A DNA stretch of 64,000 nucleotides, from assembly GCA_035544955.1 (NCBI GenBank), contig DASZZN010000034.1, positions 1 to 64,000 of the forward strand, in the 5' to 3' direction. Source of the stretch: Candidatus Dormiibacterota bacterium (GTDB lineage Bacteria; Chloroflexota; Dormibacteria; CF-121). Positions 55,933 to 63,491 of the stretch are shown here, one piece after another. The notes under the pieces were generated by a model. The model had not been told where the DNA came from, did not search any database, and was given only the letters and a program-made list of their open reading frames with translations. A program made the translations under genes and the position numbers. Numbering within the stretch: the first letter of the stretch is position 1; every line of letters starts with the position of its first letter.

Positions 55933-57357
55933 GTGAACTCTCGACGCTCGGTGGTCGCCGGACCGAAGCGTGGGCGTAGAGTGGCGGTCCTACTGCTCAG
56001 TCTGGTTGGGCTGCTCGGCTTGCTGGTGGCACCGGCGGCGGTCCTGGCCGGCACGCCGGGGGCGTCACCCTCACCCTCACCCGGCCCGAGCCCGACGACC
56101 TCACCCGTCGCCAATCCGACCCAGCCGGGCCCCTCGCACTCACCCGCGCCCAGCCCGTCGCCGACCAACACGGGCCTTCTAAACCGGCAGCCCCAGGGCC
56201 AGCTGATCGCCGACCTCACGGCGTCCGAGGCCCATGCCCTGATGCTGGAGAAGTCCCTGAACCAGTCGGAGTTGAGCCTGATCGCGCTCGGCCAGCAGAT
56301 CGTCGACGCCGAGAAGCAGGTGGCCTCGCTCGATAGCCGAATCACCGCGGTCAGCGCGCTGCACGAGCAGGTCAGCACCCGGCTCCAGGCCGACCGCACG
56401 CAGCTCGCCACCATTATTCGGCGCCTCTACAAACACCAGGACAACTTCTTTGCCAGCCTCATCCGCTCCGGCGGCTTCGGCGGCTTGCTGGAGACCCTCG
56501 GCTACAGCGACGTCGTGCTGGATCGCGAGCGAAGCCTGATCCGGGCGGTACAGGCCGACGACGTCGCCCTGGCCCATGCGCAGGCGACGTTGGAGCGCAG
56601 CCGGCACGCCAAGAAGGACACCCTATCCCGGCTGGTGATCGTCCGCACCACCCTCGCCCAGGAGATCGCCAGCGAGCAGTCGCTCCAGACGCAACTGCAG
56701 GGAACGATCGACGAGGCGCTGGTGGCGCTCGATGCCATGCAGACCGACTCGCCGGATATGGCGGTGCGGCGGGCAAAGCTCGTCAAGATGAAGACCGACA
56801 GTGTGCTCAGCCAGATCGAGCAGGCAGTCTTCGCCCAGCAGGACTTCCAGCAGGCGGCCCAGCTGATCGCGGAAGACCCGGTGCTGGCCTCGACCGGGCG
56901 CCTGCTCTGGCCGATCCCGCACGCGACCATCACGCAAGGCTTTGGCCCGACGCCCTACGTGTTCGAGGCTTCCTATGCCGGATTCCCCCACTTTCATACG
57001 GGAATCGATCTGGCAGTGCCGCTGGGAACCCCGGTGTTCGCGGCGGCGGATGGCGTCGTCATGCTCGCCCGGCCCATGGCCGACAGCACCGGAACCCTCG
57101 TCGGATACGGGAACTACGTCATCATCCAGCACGATGCCGGCTTGAAAACGCTATACGGTCACTTGCTCACGATCGGGGTCAAGGAAGGTGACCTCGTCCA
57201 CCGAGGCCAGCTGGTGGGCCTGGTGGGCTCTACCGGCAACTCGACCGGGCCGCACACCCACTTCGAGGTTCGAATCGAGAACAGCCCCGTCGATCCCATG
57301 CAGCTGCTCCCGGACCTGGCTCCGCAGCCCGCGGCGCCCATTCCGGCCTCGCGCTAG
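55933..57357 (+). CDS. Secreted M23 metallopeptidase with coiled-coil domain (EnvC/NlpD-like)
   Basis: A 474-residue exported wall protein: a signal peptide (RVAVLLLSLVGLLGLLVAPA, cleaved near residue 40), a Pro/Ser-rich linker to ~80, a coiled coil from ~85 to ~300 (SEAHALMLEKSLNQ, LHEQVSTRLQADRTQLATII), then a LytM domain with zinc ligands in HFHTGIDLAVP (His and Asp near 355-359) and GPHTHFEVR (near 441). The catalytic residues look intact, so it may be a true endopeptidase rather than only an activator. GTG 55933 is preferred, with GGTAGGA just upstream. Confidence 0.9.
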   Translation: MNSRRSVVAGPKRGRRVAVLLLSLVGLLGLLVAPAAVLAGTPGASPSPSPGPSPTTSPVANPTQPGPSHSPAPSPSPTNTGLLNRQPQGQLIADLTASEAHALMLEKSLNQSELSLIALGQQIVDAEKQVASLDSRITAVSALHEQVSTRLQADRTQLATIIRRLYKHQDNFFASLIRSGGFGGLLETLGYSDVVLDRERSLIRAVQADDVALAHAQATLERSRHAKKDTLSRLVIVRTTLAQEIASEQSLQTQLQGTIDEALVALDAMQTDSPDMAVRRAKLVKMKTDSVLSQIEQAVFAQQDFQQAAQLIAEDPVLASTGRLLWPIPHATITQGFGPTPYVFEASYAGFPHFHTGIDLAVPLGTPVFAAADGVVMLARPMADSTGTLVGYGNYVIIQHDAGLKTLYGHLLTIGVKEGDLVHRGQLVGLVGSTGNSTGPHTHFEVRIENSPVDPMQLLPDLAPQPAAPIPASR

Positions 57358-57845
57358 TAACCCAGCGGCGGCGCCGGAGTAGCGGTCACGGCCGCCAGGT
57401 CGGACGTTGCCGCAAACCACTTTCCGCCGATTCCCTGCCCGTAAGCATCGGCCGCGTCCCCGTCCTTTATGTAGGTGTAAAGCGGGTGCCCGTTATAGAG
57501 AACCTGGTTGCCATTGGCCCCGTTGAGCACCGTCAGCTCGCCGGGGAGCGCCGGGTTGCTGCTGGGTGTGCCTGAGGTGGCGAGGAGCGGCGGCCAGTTG
57601 GACGTGCATCCGGCGGTGCAGGCAACCTTCGTCGCCGTGTCGGGGGTGAAGAAGTACAGGGTGAGCCCTTTGGCATTTTTCAGCACCGTTTGCGTCTTGT
57701 CCCCCACCTTGATCGAGGCGGTGTGGATCAGCGCGGCGCCGCCTGGCGATGGGGCGTTACTGCTGGGTGCGGTGCTGCCGCAGGCCGCCAGCCAGAGGGC
57801 GGCGACCGCCGGAATGATGCCCATTTGAATTCGGATCGACTTCAT
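57354..57845 (-). CDS. YxFxxD-motif lipoprotein (COG4315-like)
   Basis: A 163-residue lipoprotein. The lipobox is LWLAAC with Cys22. The repeated family motif is visible as LTLYFFTPDTATKVAC and then HPLYTYIKDGDAADAYGQG, separated by CTSNWPPLLA; CTAGC supplies a conserved cysteine pair. The function of the family is unknown; it is common in actinobacteria and Chloroflexota cell envelopes. Its stop overlaps the stop of the convergent M23 gene. Confidence 0.88.
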   Translation of the reverse strand: MKSIRIQMGIIPAVAALWLAACGSTAPSSNAPSPGGAALIHTASIKVGDKTQTVLKNAKGLTLYFFTPDTATKVACTAGCTSNWPPLLATSGTPSSNPALPGELTVLNGANGNQVLYNGHPLYTYIKDGDAADAYGQGIGGKWFAATSDLAAVTATPAPPLGY

Positions 57846-57909
57846 GGATGCCTCCTCTGCCGGAAGTATTGCGCCGTTGAGGGATACCGAGGGAGGTTAC
57901 GATCGGCCC

Positions 57910-57938
57910 TTGCGTGGCGACAAAACATCTTGTACGAT
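57910..57938 (+). promoter_or_regulatory. Promoter of the aromatic amino acid operon
   Basis: TTGCGT (57910-57915) and TACGAT (57933-57938) are spaced by exactly 17 bases. The leader ORF begins ten bases after the -10 box, so the mRNA should start at or within a few bases of its ATG. Confidence 0.65.
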
Positions 57939-57947
57939 GTGCCGCAC

Positions 57948-58028
57948 ATGTCAGGGCGGGTTCAGTTCGCGGGCTTCTACTTTTACGCCTACCTCGGGCC
58001 GGCACGGGACCGGCTCGGGATGGGCTAG
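57948..58028 (+). CDS. Phe/Tyr-rich leader peptide, candidate attenuator
   Basis: A 26-codon ORF ending TAG 58026-58028. Residues 7-15 read FAGFYFYAY, so six of nine codons specify Phe or Tyr. No Shine-Dalgarno sequence is present, but the promoter just upstream would make it leaderless. Hairpins at 57996-58041 overlap its 3' half. The aroH start lies 82 bases downstream. Composition, position and structure fit a ribosome-stalling sensor of Phe- and Tyr-charged tRNA; this function is inferred. Confidence 0.65.
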   Translation: MSGRVQFAGFYFYAYLGPARDRLGMG

Positions 58029-58041
58029 CGCCGCCCCTCCC
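57996..58041 (+). promoter_or_regulatory. Attenuator hairpins at the end of the leader ORF
   Basis: Hairpin A: GGGCCGG (57996-58002) with CCGGCTC (58010-58016), seven pairs with one G-U. Hairpin B: GGGATGGGC (58017-58025) with GCCCCTCCC (58033-58041), nine positions with one mismatch. A ribosome paused on the aromatic codons would cover the 5' arm of A. No T run follows B, so the mechanism may be translational or a GC-rich terminator. Confidence 0.5.
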
Positions 58042-58110
58042 GCCGCCCCCGTTCACCGGCCTCCTCCTAACACAAACAAGTAACTTGGCGCGCCCAGGAG
58101 GCAAACAAGG

Positions 58111-58479
58111 ATGGCGGTTCGAGGGATTCGCGGCGCGACGACCACTGAAGAAGACAGCGAGACGGCGATAGTCGACGCCACGACGGAGCTGCTGGCGCAG
58201 CTCGCCCGCGAGAACGCGCTCAGTCCGGGCGACATCGCCGCCGTCTGGTTCACCACGACGCCCGACCTGACGTCCGAGTTTCCCGCCGCCGCGGCCCGGG
58301 GATTCGGTTGGGGAGACGTGCCCTTGCTCTGTGGCCACGAAATGGCCGTGCCCTCCTCGAACCCGCGGAGCCTGCCACGGTGCATCCGCGTGCTGCTCCT
58401 CGTCAACACCGACTGGCCGTCATCGGCGATGCGCTTCGTCTACCTGCGCGGCGCGGAGAAGTTGAGGGTGACAGCATGA
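58111..58479 (+). CDS. aroH: Chorismate mutase, AroH class
   Basis: A 122-residue trimeric-type chorismate mutase converting chorismate to prephenate. VRGIRGATTTEEDSETAIVDAT at the N-terminus has Arg7 and the conserved GATT; WFTTTPDLTSEFPAAAARGFGWGDVPLLC and CIRVLLLVNTD (Arg92-like) complete the Bacillus AroH pattern, ending in VYLRGAEKLR. Length matches the family. AGGAGG lies eight bases before the ATG. It is the first structural gene of a seven-gene operon whose members all overlap. Confidence 0.93.
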   Translation: MAVRGIRGATTTEEDSETAIVDATTELLAQLARENALSPGDIAAVWFTTTPDLTSEFPAAAARGFGWGDVPLLCGHEMAVPSSNPRSLPRCIRVLLLVNTDWPSSAMRFVYLRGAEKLRVTA

Positions 58480-59498
58480 TCATCGTGATGCGGCACGACG
58501 CGACCCCGGCGCAGGTGGCGGCGGTCGTCTCGCAGGTCGAGGCGCATGGTTGCCGGACCCACCTGAGCGACGGTGAGGAGCGAACCGTCATCGGCGTCAT
58601 CGGCACGAATCCATTCGCCTTGCGGGAGCTCTTCATCGAGGCCCCCGGGGTAGCTGAGGTGGTACCCATCACGAAGCCATTCAAATTGTCGAACCGCGAG
58701 TTCCGATCGCGCGATACTCGCATCAGGGTCGGTGACCACGAGGTTGGTGGCGACCGCCCCTGGATCGTGGCCGGGCCGTGCTCGGTTGACGGCGAGGAGA
58801 TGTACCTCGAGACTTGCCGGAAAGTACGGGCGGCAGGGGCCCACGCGCTGCGTGGGGGTATCTTCAAGCCGCGCACCTCGCCCTACAGCTTCCAGGGGCT
58901 GCGCGGCGACGGGATCAAGATCCTGCGGGAGGCAAAACGCGAAACCGGCCTGCCGCTGGTGTGCGAGGTCCTGGAGGCGGCGGACATCGGGACGCTGGCC
59001 GACATCGTCGACGTGCTGCAAATCGGCGCGCGCAACATGCAGAACTTCCCGCTGCTATCCGAAGTCGGTCGTTTGCGCAAGCCGGTCCTGCTGAAGCGAG
59101 GCATGTCGGCGACGATCGAGGAATGGCTGCTTTCGGCCGAGTACATCCTGAGCCAGGGGAACTACGACGTGATCCTCTGCGAGCGCGGGATTCGGACCTT
59201 CGAGACCTACACGCGAAACACGCTGGACCTCAACGCCGTGCCGCTGATCAAGGAACTGAGTCACCTTCCGGTGATCGTTGACCCGAGCCACGGCACGGGC
59301 CGCCGCTCCCTGGTCACCCCGATGGCCCTGGCCGGGATCGCGGCGGGCGCGGACGGCCTGATCGTCGAGGTGCACGCGCAGCCGGAGGTCGCGCTCTCCG
59401 ACGGTGCGCAATCCTTGACCCCGCAGGCGTTCGCCCACCTCGTCCAACAGGTCGATGCGGTGGCCGCGGCGCTCAACCGGACCGTCGGAGTGGCGTGA
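58476..59498 (+). CDS. aroF: 3-deoxy-7-phosphoheptulonate (DAHP) synthase, type I beta
   Basis: A 340-residue enzyme of the first shikimate step. The catalytic barrel has [38 protein letters not shown], the metal-site Cys in [21 protein letters not shown] and [10 protein letters not shown]. The first ~75 residues form the ferredoxin-like extension found in Thermotoga-type enzymes, where it binds Tyr/Phe for feedback inhibition. Together with the leader upstream, this implies control by aromatic amino acids at two levels. It overlaps aroH as ATGA. Confidence 0.94.
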
Positions 59499-60310
59499 TG
59501 CGGGTCGGCATCGTCGGACTCGGGCTGATCGGTGGCTCACTCGGCCTGGCGCTACGCCGGCTGGGCGGGTCGATCGAGGTCCGCGGTGTCGCCCATCACG
59601 AGGATGGCGTGCTGGCGGCGCAGCAGCGTGGCGTAGTCGACCGCGCGTCGACCGACCTGCGCGACCTGGCCGACTGCGACATCGTGGTGGTCGCCACGCC
59701 CATCAACCAGATCCGGACGGTGCTCGAACGCCTGGCGGGCATCGTGCCACGAAGCGGCATCGTCACCGACGTGGCCAGTGTGAAGCGCCCGGTGCTCGAC
59801 TGGGCGCGCTGTCTGCCCGCTCCGGATCGATTCCTCGGCGGCCACCCCGTCGCGGGCAAGGAGCGAAGCGGCCTGGGTGAAAGCGATGCCACGCTCTTCC
59901 GCGGCGAGACATGGATCTTCACGCCGGATGACGGGCAAGACCTGACCCCGTTCGACGAGTGGTTCCGAATGGTCCGGGCCCTGGGAGCGCGGCCGCAAGT
60001 TCTCTCCGCCGAGGCGCACGACCGGCAGATGGCGTTTCTGAGCCACCTGGCCTTCACCATCAGCATCGCGTACGCCCAGACAGTGCGACCGGTTGCGGAT
60101 CCGGCGCTCGGCGGTCCCGGATTTCGAGGCATGGTGCGCCTGGCCGAGGGTGATCCCACCCTGTACGAGGACATCACGACCACGAACCGCGGTCCCCTGG
60201 TCGAGGCAATCGACCGCTTCTCCGAGGTGCTGCGCGACTACCGCGAGCGCATCAACCGTGGCGAGCGCGTGGGCGAGCTCTTCAGGCAGGGCGTGCATGC
60301 CGCTCGCTGA
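59498..60310 (+). CDS. tyrA: Prephenate dehydrogenase
   Basis: A 270-residue NAD-dependent enzyme giving 4-hydroxyphenylpyruvate. [17 protein letters not shown] is the Rossmann motif, [10 protein letters not shown] and [14 protein letters not shown] follow, and [20 protein letters not shown] holds the catalytic His. [16 protein letters not shown] carries the second conserved His. It lacks an ACT domain, so feedback must come from elsewhere. ATG 59498 shares its first base with the aroF stop; GTG 59495 is possible. Confidence 0.93.
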
Positions 60311-61601
60311 GGTGCAGTCCGCCCGCACCGTCTCACCGGCGATGCGCGTTGCCGGCGAACTGTCCGTCCCCGGGGATAAGTCGATTGCCCACCGTGGCCT
60401 GATGCTCGCCGCCCTGGCGCAGGGTGAAAGCTGGGTTCACGGTCTCCCCGAAGGTGAAGATGTCCTGGCGACCGTTGCCTGTCTCCGCGGCCTCGGTGCC
60501 GACCTCCAGCGCAGTGGTCGCACGGCGCGGATCCGTGGGGCGGGCCTGAGCTCGTTCGCGACGCCGCATGGCAACCTCGACTGTGCCAACTCCGGGACCA
60601 CGATGCGACTGCTGCTCGGCATCCTCGCCGGCAGCTCGATAACAGCGACCCTCGACGGCGACGCCTCGCTCCGCCGCCGCCCGATGGCTCGAGTGATCGA
60701 GCCGCTGAGGCGTATGGGGGCGAGGATCGAATCGCAAGAGGATCGAGCCCCGATCGGCGTGAGGGGAACATCGCTCCAGGGTCGGCGCTACGCGTTGCCC
60801 ATCCCGAGCGCCCAGGTGAAGAGCGCGCTGCTATTGGCCGGACTTTCCGCCAGCGGTCCGACGACCGTCGTCGAGCCCTCGCCCACGCGGGACCACACAG
60901 AACGGTTGCTGCGAGCGATGGGAACGGATGTCAACGCGACGGCGGACGGCGTCGTGATCCGGCCATCGCATCAGCCGCTACGGCCGATCGAGCTGGCCGT
61001 GCCTGGCGACTTTTCCTCCGCCGCGTTCTGGATGACGGCCGCGGCGTTGAGGCCTGGCTGGTCGGTGATCATCGGCGATGTCGGCCTCAACCCAACGCGG
61101 ACCGCGTTTCTCGAGCTGCTGCGGTCGATGGGTGCCGGCGTCAGGGTCGAGGCATCTTCCGACGACATCGAGCCCCGCGGCATGGTGACCGTGTCCGGCC
61201 AACGCCTGCGGTCCGTTGTCCTCGATGCTACCGATGTGGCGGCCGCCATCGACGAGATCCCTGCCCTGCTCGTGCTAGCGACGCAGGCAGGGGGGGTCAC
61301 CACCATCAGTGGCGCCGGAGAGCTCCGCGTCAAGGAGAGCGATCGGATTGCCACTATGGCCGAAGGCCTTCGCCGAATGGGCGCCATCGTGGAGGAGCGC
61401 GCGGACGGCGTCAGTATCCAGGGGCCGGCCGCGCTGCACGGCGCGACTGTCGATCCGCACGGGGACCACCGCGTCGCGATGGCGCTGGCGGTGGCGGGAC
61501 TCGTCGCCTCCGGTCCGACGACGATCGAGGGCGCCGACTGCGTCGCCGTCTCGTATCCCAACTTCTTTGCGCAACTGCAGGACCTGACCCATGAATCCTG
61601 A
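60297..61601 (+). CDS. aroA: 5-enolpyruvylshikimate-3-phosphate synthase
   Basis: A 434-residue EPSP synthase. GELSVPGDKSIAHRGLMLAA near residues 20-39 has the PEP-binding Lys/Ser; LDCANSGTTMRLLLGILAG is the class I NSGT motif, and RRRPMARVIEPLRRMGA and the C-terminal VKESDRIATMAEGLRRMGA and DPHGDHRVAMALAVAG complete it. The AN-SGTTMR loop has the usual Gly/Thr arrangement except for a Ser. The start overlaps tyrA by 14 bases. Confidence 0.95.
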   Translation: MPLAEVQSARTVSPAMRVAGELSVPGDKSIAHRGLMLAALAQGESWVHGLPEGEDVLATVACLRGLGADLQRSGRTARIRGAGLSSFATPHGNLDCANSGTTMRLLLGILAGSSITATLDGDASLRRRPMARVIEPLRRMGARIESQEDRAPIGVRGTSLQGRRYALPIPSAQVKSALLLAGLSASGPTTVVEPSPTRDHTERLLRAMGTDVNATADGVVIRPSHQPLRPIELAVPGDFSSAAFWMTAAALRPGWSVIIGDVGLNPTRTAFLELLRSMGAGVRVEASSDDIEPRGMVTVSGQRLRSVVLDATDVAAAIDEIPALLVLATQAGGVTTISGAGELRVKESDRIATMAEGLRRMGAIVEERADGVSIQGPAALHGATVDPHGDHRVAMALAVAGLVASGPTTIEGADCVAVSYPNFFAQLQDLTHES

Positions 61602-62349
61602 TGCCAGAGTGCTCCTGCTGGGTGATCCCGTCTCCCGCAGTCTCTCGCCCGGCATGCAAAACGCCGCCTTCGAAGCGCTCGGCATCGATTGCCGCTACCT
61701 GCTTCGTGAGGTGAACCGGGCTGGACTGGCCGGCGCGATGGCCGAGCTGCGCGGAGACGAGCGCATCCTCGGGGCCAACGTCACAATCCCGCACAAGGAA
61801 TCGGTCATCCCGTACCTCGATGACCTCGACGCGCAGGCCGATCGCATTGGCGCGGTGAACACCATCAGCCGGCAGGGCGCGAAACTGAAGGGCTGGAACT
61901 CCGATATCGAGGGCTTCCAGCGCGCTCTCGCCGAGATGGGTGGGAGTTACTCCCGTGTCGCGATCATCGGAGCCGGCGGAGCCGCGCGAGCCGTCGCCGC
62001 CGCGCTGCAGCCGGCTGCCGAAGTCTGGGTGGTCGCACGCAACGTCGAGCAGGCACGACGCCTGTGCCACGACCTCGAGATCGTCCGTGGCGGCCCGGTT
62101 AAGATGGACCAGCTGCAGGAGGCGGTCGCGAAGGCGCAGCTGGTCGTGAATGCCACGCCCGCCGAGCTTCCACCGGCGTCCTGGCTGCGAACCGATCAAG
62201 TCCTCTTCGACCTACGCAGCCGTCGATCGGCGGAGGGTCGGGCCATGCTCCTGCACCAGGGTGCGGCGTCGTTCGAGATATGGACCGGCAGAAAGGCGCC
62301 CATTGACGTGATGCGGGCCGCGCTCGATCGCGCATCGGTGCCGGCATGA
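61591..62349 (+). CDS. aroE: Shikimate dehydrogenase
   Basis: A 252-residue NADP-dependent enzyme. LLGDPVSRSLSPGMQNAAFE opens the substrate domain (SxS motif), ANVTIPHKESVIPYLDDLD has the catalytic Lys, GAVNTISRQGAKLKGWNSD the second block with the catalytic Asp, and VAIIGAGGAARAVAAAL the Rossmann loop. The C-terminal usual DLxY is changed to VLFDLRSRRSAEGRAML, a moderate divergence. It overlaps aroA by 11 bases. Confidence 0.92.
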   Translation: MNPDARVLLLGDPVSRSLSPGMQNAAFEALGIDCRYLLREVNRAGLAGAMAELRGDERILGANVTIPHKESVIPYLDDLDAQADRIGAVNTISRQGAKLKGWNSDIEGFQRALAEMGGSYSRVAIIGAGGAARAVAAALQPAAEVWVVARNVEQARRLCHDLEIVRGGPVKMDQLQEAVAKAQLVVNATPAELPPASWLRTDQVLFDLRSRRSAEGRAMLLHQGAASFEIWTGRKAPIDVMRAALDRASVPA

Positions 62350-63491
62350 CCCTCCGCCTGCTCACCGCCGGCGAATCGCATGGCGAGCGGCTGACCGTCA
62401 TCCTCGACGGCGTGCCCGCCGGCTTGACCGTGCGTGAGGAAGACCTGGGCCGCGACCTGACGCGCAGACAGGGTGGTCACGGCCGCGGCGGGCGGCAGTT
62501 GATCGAGCACGACGAGGCCCACATCGTCGCCGGCGTGCGCGGCGGTTTGACGCTCGGCTCGCCGATCACGCTCGAGATCGCGAACCGAGACTGGGAGAAC
62601 TGGCGGCAGGTCATGGCCGTCAATGCCGCAGAGGTCAAGCGCAAGCCGATCACTCGTGTGCGTCCGGGCCATGCCGACCTGGCCGGCATGCTCAAGTACG
62701 GGGCGAACGATGCACGCGATGTCTTGGAACGGGCTAGCGCGCGCGAGACGGCGGCTCGTGTGGCGGCGGGCGGCGTGACGAAACTACTGCTCCGGGAATT
62801 CGGCATGGAGGTGCGCAGTTACACCCGCTCCGTCGGCGCCATCGAGGCCACCGTACCGTCGCCGATCCCCTGGGAGGAGGTCGAATCCTCGGCGGTCCGC
62901 TCCCCCGACGGAGCTGCCGGCGAGGCGATGGTGCGCGCGATCGATGCGGCGCGCGAACGAGGCGACACGCTCGGCGGCGTCTTCACCGTCATCGCCGAAG
63001 GCGTCCCGCCCGGCCTGGGCAGCTACCGGCAGTGGGACACGAGGCTTGACGGCCTGCTCGCCCAGGCGATCGTCAGTATCCCGGCCTGCAAAGCCGTCGC
63101 CATCGGCGATGGCGTGGAGGGAGCAGGCCTGCCCGGCTCGCAGGTGCATGACGTGCCCGTCTACGACAACGGGCGCCTGGGCCACGAGACAAACCGCGCC
63201 GGCGGACTGACGGGTGGCGTCAGCAACGGCGAGCCGCTGGTCGTGCACGGCTACATGAAGCCGATCTCGACCTTGCTCAAGCCGCTGGCCACCGTCGACC
63301 TCAAGACGAAGGAACCGGCGCGGGCCCACTACGAGCGCAGCGACATCTGCGTCGTGCCGGCCGCCGGGGTGGTGGGGGAGGCGATGGTTGCCCTGGTCCT
63401 CGCCGGCGTTCTGCTCGAGAAGTTCGGCAGCGACTCGATGACCGAACTGCATCGGAACGTCGAGAGCTACTTGCAGGAGACGCGCCGTTGA
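62346..63491 (+). CDS. aroC: Chorismate synthase
   Basis: A 381-residue FMN-dependent enzyme producing chorismate. The three signatures are present: GESHGERLTVILDGVPAG near the start, RPGHADLAGMLKYGANDARD with RASARETAARVAAGGV, and the C-terminal TNRAGGLTGGVSNGEPL and PATVDLKTKE-like region. Length is normal. The start overlaps aroE as ATGA. Confidence 0.96.
   Translation: MTLRLLTAGESHGERLTVILDGVPAGLTVREEDLGRDLTRRQGGHGRGGRQLIEHDEAHIVAGVRGGLTLGSPITLEIANRDWENWRQVMAVNAAEVKRKPITRVRPGHADLAGMLKYGANDARDVLERASARETAARVAAGGVTKLLLREFGMEVRSYTRSVGAIEATVPSPIPWEEVESSAVRSPDGAAGEAMVRAIDAARERGDTLGGVFTVIAEGVPPGLGSYRQWDTRLDGLLAQAIVSIPACKAVAIGDGVEGAGLPGSQVHDVPVYDNGRLGHETNRAGGLTGGVSNGEPLVVHGYMKPISTLLKPLATVDLKTKEPARAHYERSDICVVPAAGVVGEAMVALVLAGVLLEKFGSDSMTELHRNVESYLQETRR

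Follow-up and report, generated by a model that had tools for sequence, protein, structure and literature searches.

In the window, the whole 64-kb stretch of DNA analysed here, a short leader ORF precedes an operon of the order aroH-aroF-tyrA-aroA-aroE-aroC (Table 1). The products of aroH, aroF, aroA and aroC score above the curated NCBIfam cut-offs, while tyrA and aroE are named by best matches below them; the aroH, aroF and tyrA genes originally predicted downstream of the leader are confirmed, tyrA with this qualification. The leader itself is an aromatic ORF of 26 codons, again as predicted, in which a Phe at codon 7 precedes the run F-Y-F-Y-A-Y, and its stop codon lies the predicted 82 bases from the aroH ATG. 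Windows of eight codons with at least five aromatic ones occur at three places in the 64 kb, all six frames considered. The promoter that the original prediction had placed before the leader, TTGCGT-17-TACGAT, is present in the sequence, its -10 hexamer ending nine bases before the leader ATG; a generic promoter scan of the window did not include it in its output. Upstream of the -35 hexamer lie a GGTTACG box and a divergent lipoprotein gene.

Table 1. Features of the aroH locus, numbered from the first base of the window.
Feature	Positions	Strand	Remarks
Lipoprotein gene, divergent	57357-57845	-	SCO0930-related, below curated cut-off
GGTTACG box	57894-57901		possible regulator site; retained in nearly all relatives, duplicated in one (L012)
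-35 hexamer TTGCGT	57910-57915	+	TTGCCA or TTGTCA in relatives; TTG kept in 13/13
-10 hexamer TACGAT	57933-57938	+	TA(C/G)(G/C)AT in 13/13
Leader ORF, MSGRVQFAGFYFYAYLGPARDRLGMG and stop	57948-58028	+	26 codons; ATG at 57948, TAG at 58026-58028; probably leaderless
Specifier codons F-Y-F-Y-A-Y	57975-57992	+	position -3 aromatic in 23/23 leaders
Hairpin 1:2, CTCGGGCCGG with CCGGCTCGGG	57993-58019	+	ten pairs possible in 13/13, invariant
Segment 1, GGGCCGGCACGGG	57996-58008	+	alternative partner of segment 3
Segment 2, GGGACCGGCTCGGG	58006-58019	+	near-repeat of segment 1
Hairpin H2, around leader stop codon	58016-58042	+	G-C, G-U or A-U at 58023/58035
GCGCC in H2 loop	58028-58032	+	begins with last base of stop (TAGCGCC)
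Segment 3, CCCGT..CCGGCCT	58048-58062	+	
Anti-Shine-Dalgarno GCCTCCT	58059-58065	+	CTCCT with AGGAG possible in 13/13 aroH copies
GGCGC adjoining Shine-Dalgarno	58087-58091	+	complements 58028-58032; in 15-16 of 16 sequences
Shine-Dalgarno AGGAGG of aroH	58096-58101	+	
aroH, chorismate mutase	58111-58479	+	TIGR01796
aroF, DAHP synthase	58476-59498	+	PRK08673
tyrA, prephenate dehydrogenase	59495-60310	+	
aroA, EPSP synthase	60285-61601	+	start approximate
aroE-like, shikimate dehydrogenase	61591-62349	+	below curated cut-offs
aroC, chorismate synthase	62346-63491	+	

AroH is encoded in 14 of the 15 genomes of the genus (72-94% identity, the window's own copy excluded), and 13 of the genomes have the aroH leader intact, the number to which the counts refer; in one relative (G002) a contig starts within the leader, the remainder of which was found on a second contig. 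The public records carry the name 'Chloroflexi bacterium' and come from soil metagenomes. All 13 keep the promoter, the position of the start codon, the YFYAY core, the RNA hairpins and the anti-Shine-Dalgarno segment in their intact leaders. The original prediction was to be judged chiefly by the conservation of the aromatic codons, and Y-F-Y-A-Y is found in frame with invariant amino acids in every intact aroH leader, while copies of the scaffold with Phe codons occur elsewhere. Unlike the leader, the promoter and the register, the spacer at 58066-58086 varies. In the fourteenth genome with AroH (G003), a deletion has removed the promoter, the leader's 5' half and most of the divergent lipoprotein gene, so that the beginning of that gene is now joined to the leader's 3' half (L002); this may reflect a natural loss of control or a fault in the assembly.

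A promoter of the form TTGNNN-17-TA(C/G)(G/C)AT with an ATG 8-10 bases later is present in all 13 genus genomes with the region intact, which makes it likely that the aroH leader is translated from a leaderless mRNA, as had been proposed. The proposal does not extend to the element as a whole, since the copies before pheS in the genus, described below, begin immediately behind the rplT stop codon.

The two hairpins predicted to follow the aromatic codons are both present, and with the segments downstream they can form mutually exclusive helices. Segment 1 is able to pair with segment 2 or with segment 3, which overlaps the anti-Shine-Dalgarno sequence, and segment 2 may likewise pair with segment 3. 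The RNA helices as a whole are supported by compensatory base changes. An A-U to U-A exchange at 58004/58052, between segments 1 and 3, combines a synonymous change of an Ala codon in the leader with a matching change in the untranslated spacer. In the aroH leaders alone 98.5% of cells are paired. None of 500 shuffles reaches the covariation score, a result whose weight is limited by the relatedness of the sequences; sliding the partners destroys the score. Across loci 92% of cells are paired and the score again exceeds all 500 shuffles, under the same limit of relatedness, with double-sided changes at six pairs in the whole structure, four of them in H2. The pairing of GCGCC in the H2 loop with GGCGC is invariant and thus beyond the reach of covariation. 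A long stem between the leader RNA and the aroH coding region, considered as a sequestering helix, showed no covariation and was rejected.

The aroH leader appears to be one member of a small family in which a single scaffold has been reused. When a covariance model built from the aroH leaders only (R1) was searched in 110 genomes of the class, its good further matches (E from 1e-7 to 1e-11) lay only before pheS-pheT (G006, G001, G005, G002, G011 and G010) and before DAHP synthase (G017 and G015, the proteins confirmed), all within the same family. Weak R1 matches in two genomes (G051 and G436) and a match of a pattern search in a third (G070) were in unrelated sequence and judged to be chance, the pattern search adding nothing else credible. 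A second model (R2), built from all R1-found elements and the aroH leaders, added a pheS leader in G013 and found nothing outside three genera of one family among 400 genomes of the phylum. The collection comprises 23 leaders: 13 before aroH, eight before pheS and two before DAHP synthase. Seven of the pheS copies (L110, L112, L114-L117 and L152) belong to genomes of the genus, carry Phe codons, lie between rplT and pheS and start one base after the rplT stop (TAACATG). The two DAHP synthase copies (L111 and L113), also with Phe codons, precede stand-alone genes in two sister genera and have a consensus promoter, TTGACA-17-TACGAT, 10 bases before the ATG.

What unites the family is its register. 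Counting back from the CCG of a conserved CCGGCnCG, the third codon is the final aromatic one in each of the 23 leaders; in the window it is the Tyr codon at 57990-57992. By sequence comparison the identity of this codon matches the target gene: the 13 aroH leaders, which precede the tyrA operon, have Tyr, and the eight pheS and two DAHP synthase leaders have Phe. With the exception of the pheS copy of G013, every leader has its stop codon at GCGCC or within a few bases of it, and GGCGC (in one case TGCGC) precedes the Shine-Dalgarno sequence across the collection. Some pheS copies depart from the full design. In some of them the anti-Shine-Dalgarno sequence beside segment 3 is weak or missing altogether, and the eighth (L174, from G015 of genus g2) is shortened, with the leader MSGMVWLSFFLGPARGRPSA and stop, a promoter-like sequence of its own, GCGCC and GGCGC about 12 bases apart and segment 3 missing. 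In the window's own genome, among others, the pheS region has no leader and retains a remnant, TAGCGC or GGCGCGCCTGGAGG. Remnants of the TAGCGC kind after the rplT stop at three pheS loci without a leader (L146, in the window's own genome, L149 and L158) suggest that the element has been lost there, perhaps repeatedly.

Sequence comparison establishes the leader, its codons, their register, the RNA helices and the association with genes of Phe and Tyr. On this footing the region is quite probably an amino-acid-responsive leader-peptide attenuator belonging to a small reusable family; the pausing of the ribosome, the read-out on translation, the direction of the switch and leaderless transcription are inferred. 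The attenuation by a Phe/Tyr leader peptide predicted from the sequence is, in this sense, supported by the conservation of the codons and their reuse at pheS and DAHP synthase. No intrinsic terminator with a U run is found on the forward strand between the leader and aroH, so control would most likely act on the translation of aroH rather than on transcription; neither this lack of a terminator nor the existence of a family figured in the original prediction. Translation of the leader would probably begin at the extreme 5' end of the transcript, and when charged Tyr-tRNA (and Phe-tRNA) is scarce the ribosome would pause on Y-F-Y-A-Y. Halted on the last Tyr, it would occlude segment 1 while the RNA further along could fold freely, with the anti-Shine-Dalgarno sequence engaged elsewhere and the aroH Shine-Dalgarno exposed. 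A ribosome usually covers about 15-16 bases past the first base of its P site; when the last Tyr codon occupies the A site, the edge of the footprint would fall at 58002-58003, just over GGGCCGG of segment 1. With amino acids plentiful, the ribosome would instead reach the stop codon and cover H2 and GCGCC, whereupon the C-rich anti-Shine-Dalgarno sequence would be free to pair with AGGAGG and translation of aroH would fall.

Equilibrium folding energies leave the direction of this switch unsettled. With ViennaRNA folds ending nine bases into aroH, a pause at the last Tyr gave a higher predicted exposure of the Shine-Dalgarno than a ribosome at the stop codon in 13/13 aroH leaders; the same sign was obtained in only 1/13 or 0/13 when the fold stopped at the aroH ATG or ran about 30 bases past it. 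The first result was accordingly set aside as proof of direction, since the sign depends on how much of aroH is included, and the GCGCC-GGCGC pseudoknot lies outside the scope of the program.

A fuller scheme can be drawn in which one ribosome-read scaffold is reused with only its control codons changed, and a ribosome at the stop codon opens the pairing of GCGCC with GGCGC to switch translation of the next gene. This would make the element a codon-programmed translational counterpart of the T-box within one Chloroflexota family, and is to be regarded as possible rather than probable.

The absence of intrinsic terminators at the aroH leader would also suit a Rho-dependent attenuation of transcription, in which 58029-58068, a C-rich and G-poor stretch, would serve as a rut site whose accessibility depends on the position of the ribosome; Rho sites have been proposed for mycobacterial cys leaders (PMC1262725). 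We consider this unlikely. This stretch belongs to helices that are conserved and covary, and a ribosome on the aromatic codons, which lie 5' of it, would leave it uncovered, the wrong sign for induction by starvation. The complementarity between the Shine-Dalgarno and anti-Shine-Dalgarno sequences would also be left unexplained.

The end of the leader bears on a different proposal, that the ribosome is arrested in response to a ligand by the conserved tail GPAR(D/G)R, as in TnaC. P-A-R is invariant in 23/23 leaders, but it is simply the translation of CCGGCnCG. Codon changes in the tail are mostly non-synonymous, at codon positions 1 and 2 (D/G/V, L/H, G/E, M/L/S, G/S/N), and in G010 and G013 the tail of the pheS leader is shifted in frame after PAR with the helix-forming DNA largely retained. 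Both observations argue that the constraint is on the RNA and not on the peptide, making nascent-peptide arrest very improbable. In another reading the RNA binds a protein or a tRNA, or acts as a riboswitch, with the ORF incidental, and the RNA is indeed more strongly kept than the variable N-terminal codons of the aroH leader. There is nonetheless little to recommend this reading: the ORF is open in every copy, one clade of aroH leaders differing by a six-base deletion that is in frame, an aromatic codon fitting the gene stands at the fixed position -3 in 23/23 leaders, and the Rfam covariance models, T-box included, gave no match to a regulatory family. That the leader serves as an antenna for reinitiation, or encodes a small protein with a function of its own, without amino-acid sensing, is scarcely credible: reinitiation at leader genes is able to increase translation (PMC4833913) and TAACATG before pheS suggests coupling to rplT, but reinitiation across the 82 bases to aroH would be a long step, the choice of codons follows the pathway and the N-terminal half is poorly conserved.

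An attenuator acting through translation at aroH would thus share two of the classical hallmarks, a leader enriched in the relevant codons and mutually exclusive helices, and lack the third, a terminator with a U run. Leader-peptide attenuation is known mainly in Proteobacteria and Actinobacteria, usually with a separate solution for each operon. The pheL and trpL attenuators likewise combine a leader rich in the regulated amino acid with overlapping alternative helices; there, however, the outcome is a terminator hairpin with a U run, whereas here it would be the pairing of the Shine-Dalgarno with the anti-Shine-Dalgarno sequence, from a leader that is probably leaderless. In E. coli, pheM is a Phe-rich leader peptide lying between rplT and pheS, the same position as the pheS copies described here, but it works through an intrinsic terminator, which is absent here, and the RNA scaffold here is common to the aroH and DAHP synthase leaders. 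The logic by which the position of a ribosome on a short ORF decides the pairing of a downstream Shine-Dalgarno is that of erm-type translation attenuation, although erm responds to antibiotics and the present element would respond to the supply of aminoacyl-tRNA.

The original prediction took a leaderless Phe/Tyr-sensing leader before aroH-aroF-tyrA in this type of bacterium to be probably new; leaderless leader peptides as such are already known as trpL, leuL and ilvL in Streptomyces (PMC8079986) and as Cys uORFs in mycobacteria (PMC4633059). As here, these ORFs lie at or near the 5' end of the mRNA, some without a terminator; they concern other amino acids in other phyla, and the available parts of both sources describe no common scaffold. 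Leaders without terminators have also been noted in Actinobacteria (PMC1262725), and the ilvB uORF of Corynebacterium is a transcription attenuator (PMC10272879). A search of the literature on Chloroflexi with leader peptides or attenuation returned no description of such an element. The kind is known, therefore, while the scaffold, its reuse and its lineage appear to be new.

One scaffold, placed before aroH-tyrA, pheST and DAHP synthase in uncultivated soil Chloroflexota, carries codons that match each target, at a fixed distance from the first helix. Its recurrence in relatives with changed codons points to a reusable sensor of Phe and Tyr shortage; if the mechanism is as proposed, specificity should be reprogrammable by codon swaps, and the register directly predicts the required site of ribosome pausing.

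No aroH leader was found in other genera of the family or in other families, and no match to its peptide motif outside the genus among the 400 phylum genomes; in a scan of GTDB contigs the motif matched contigs of the genus only. Leaders before trpE, which in the genus lies closely behind another gene, and before pheA were looked for there, and none was convincing. Outside the genus aroH has its own promoter or, in several genomes, follows trpA. In several genera and families (L018, L024, L026-L028, L030 and L060) it stands directly after a trpA-like gene, which suggests that the separation of the aromatic operon from trp took place no later than the origin of the leader.
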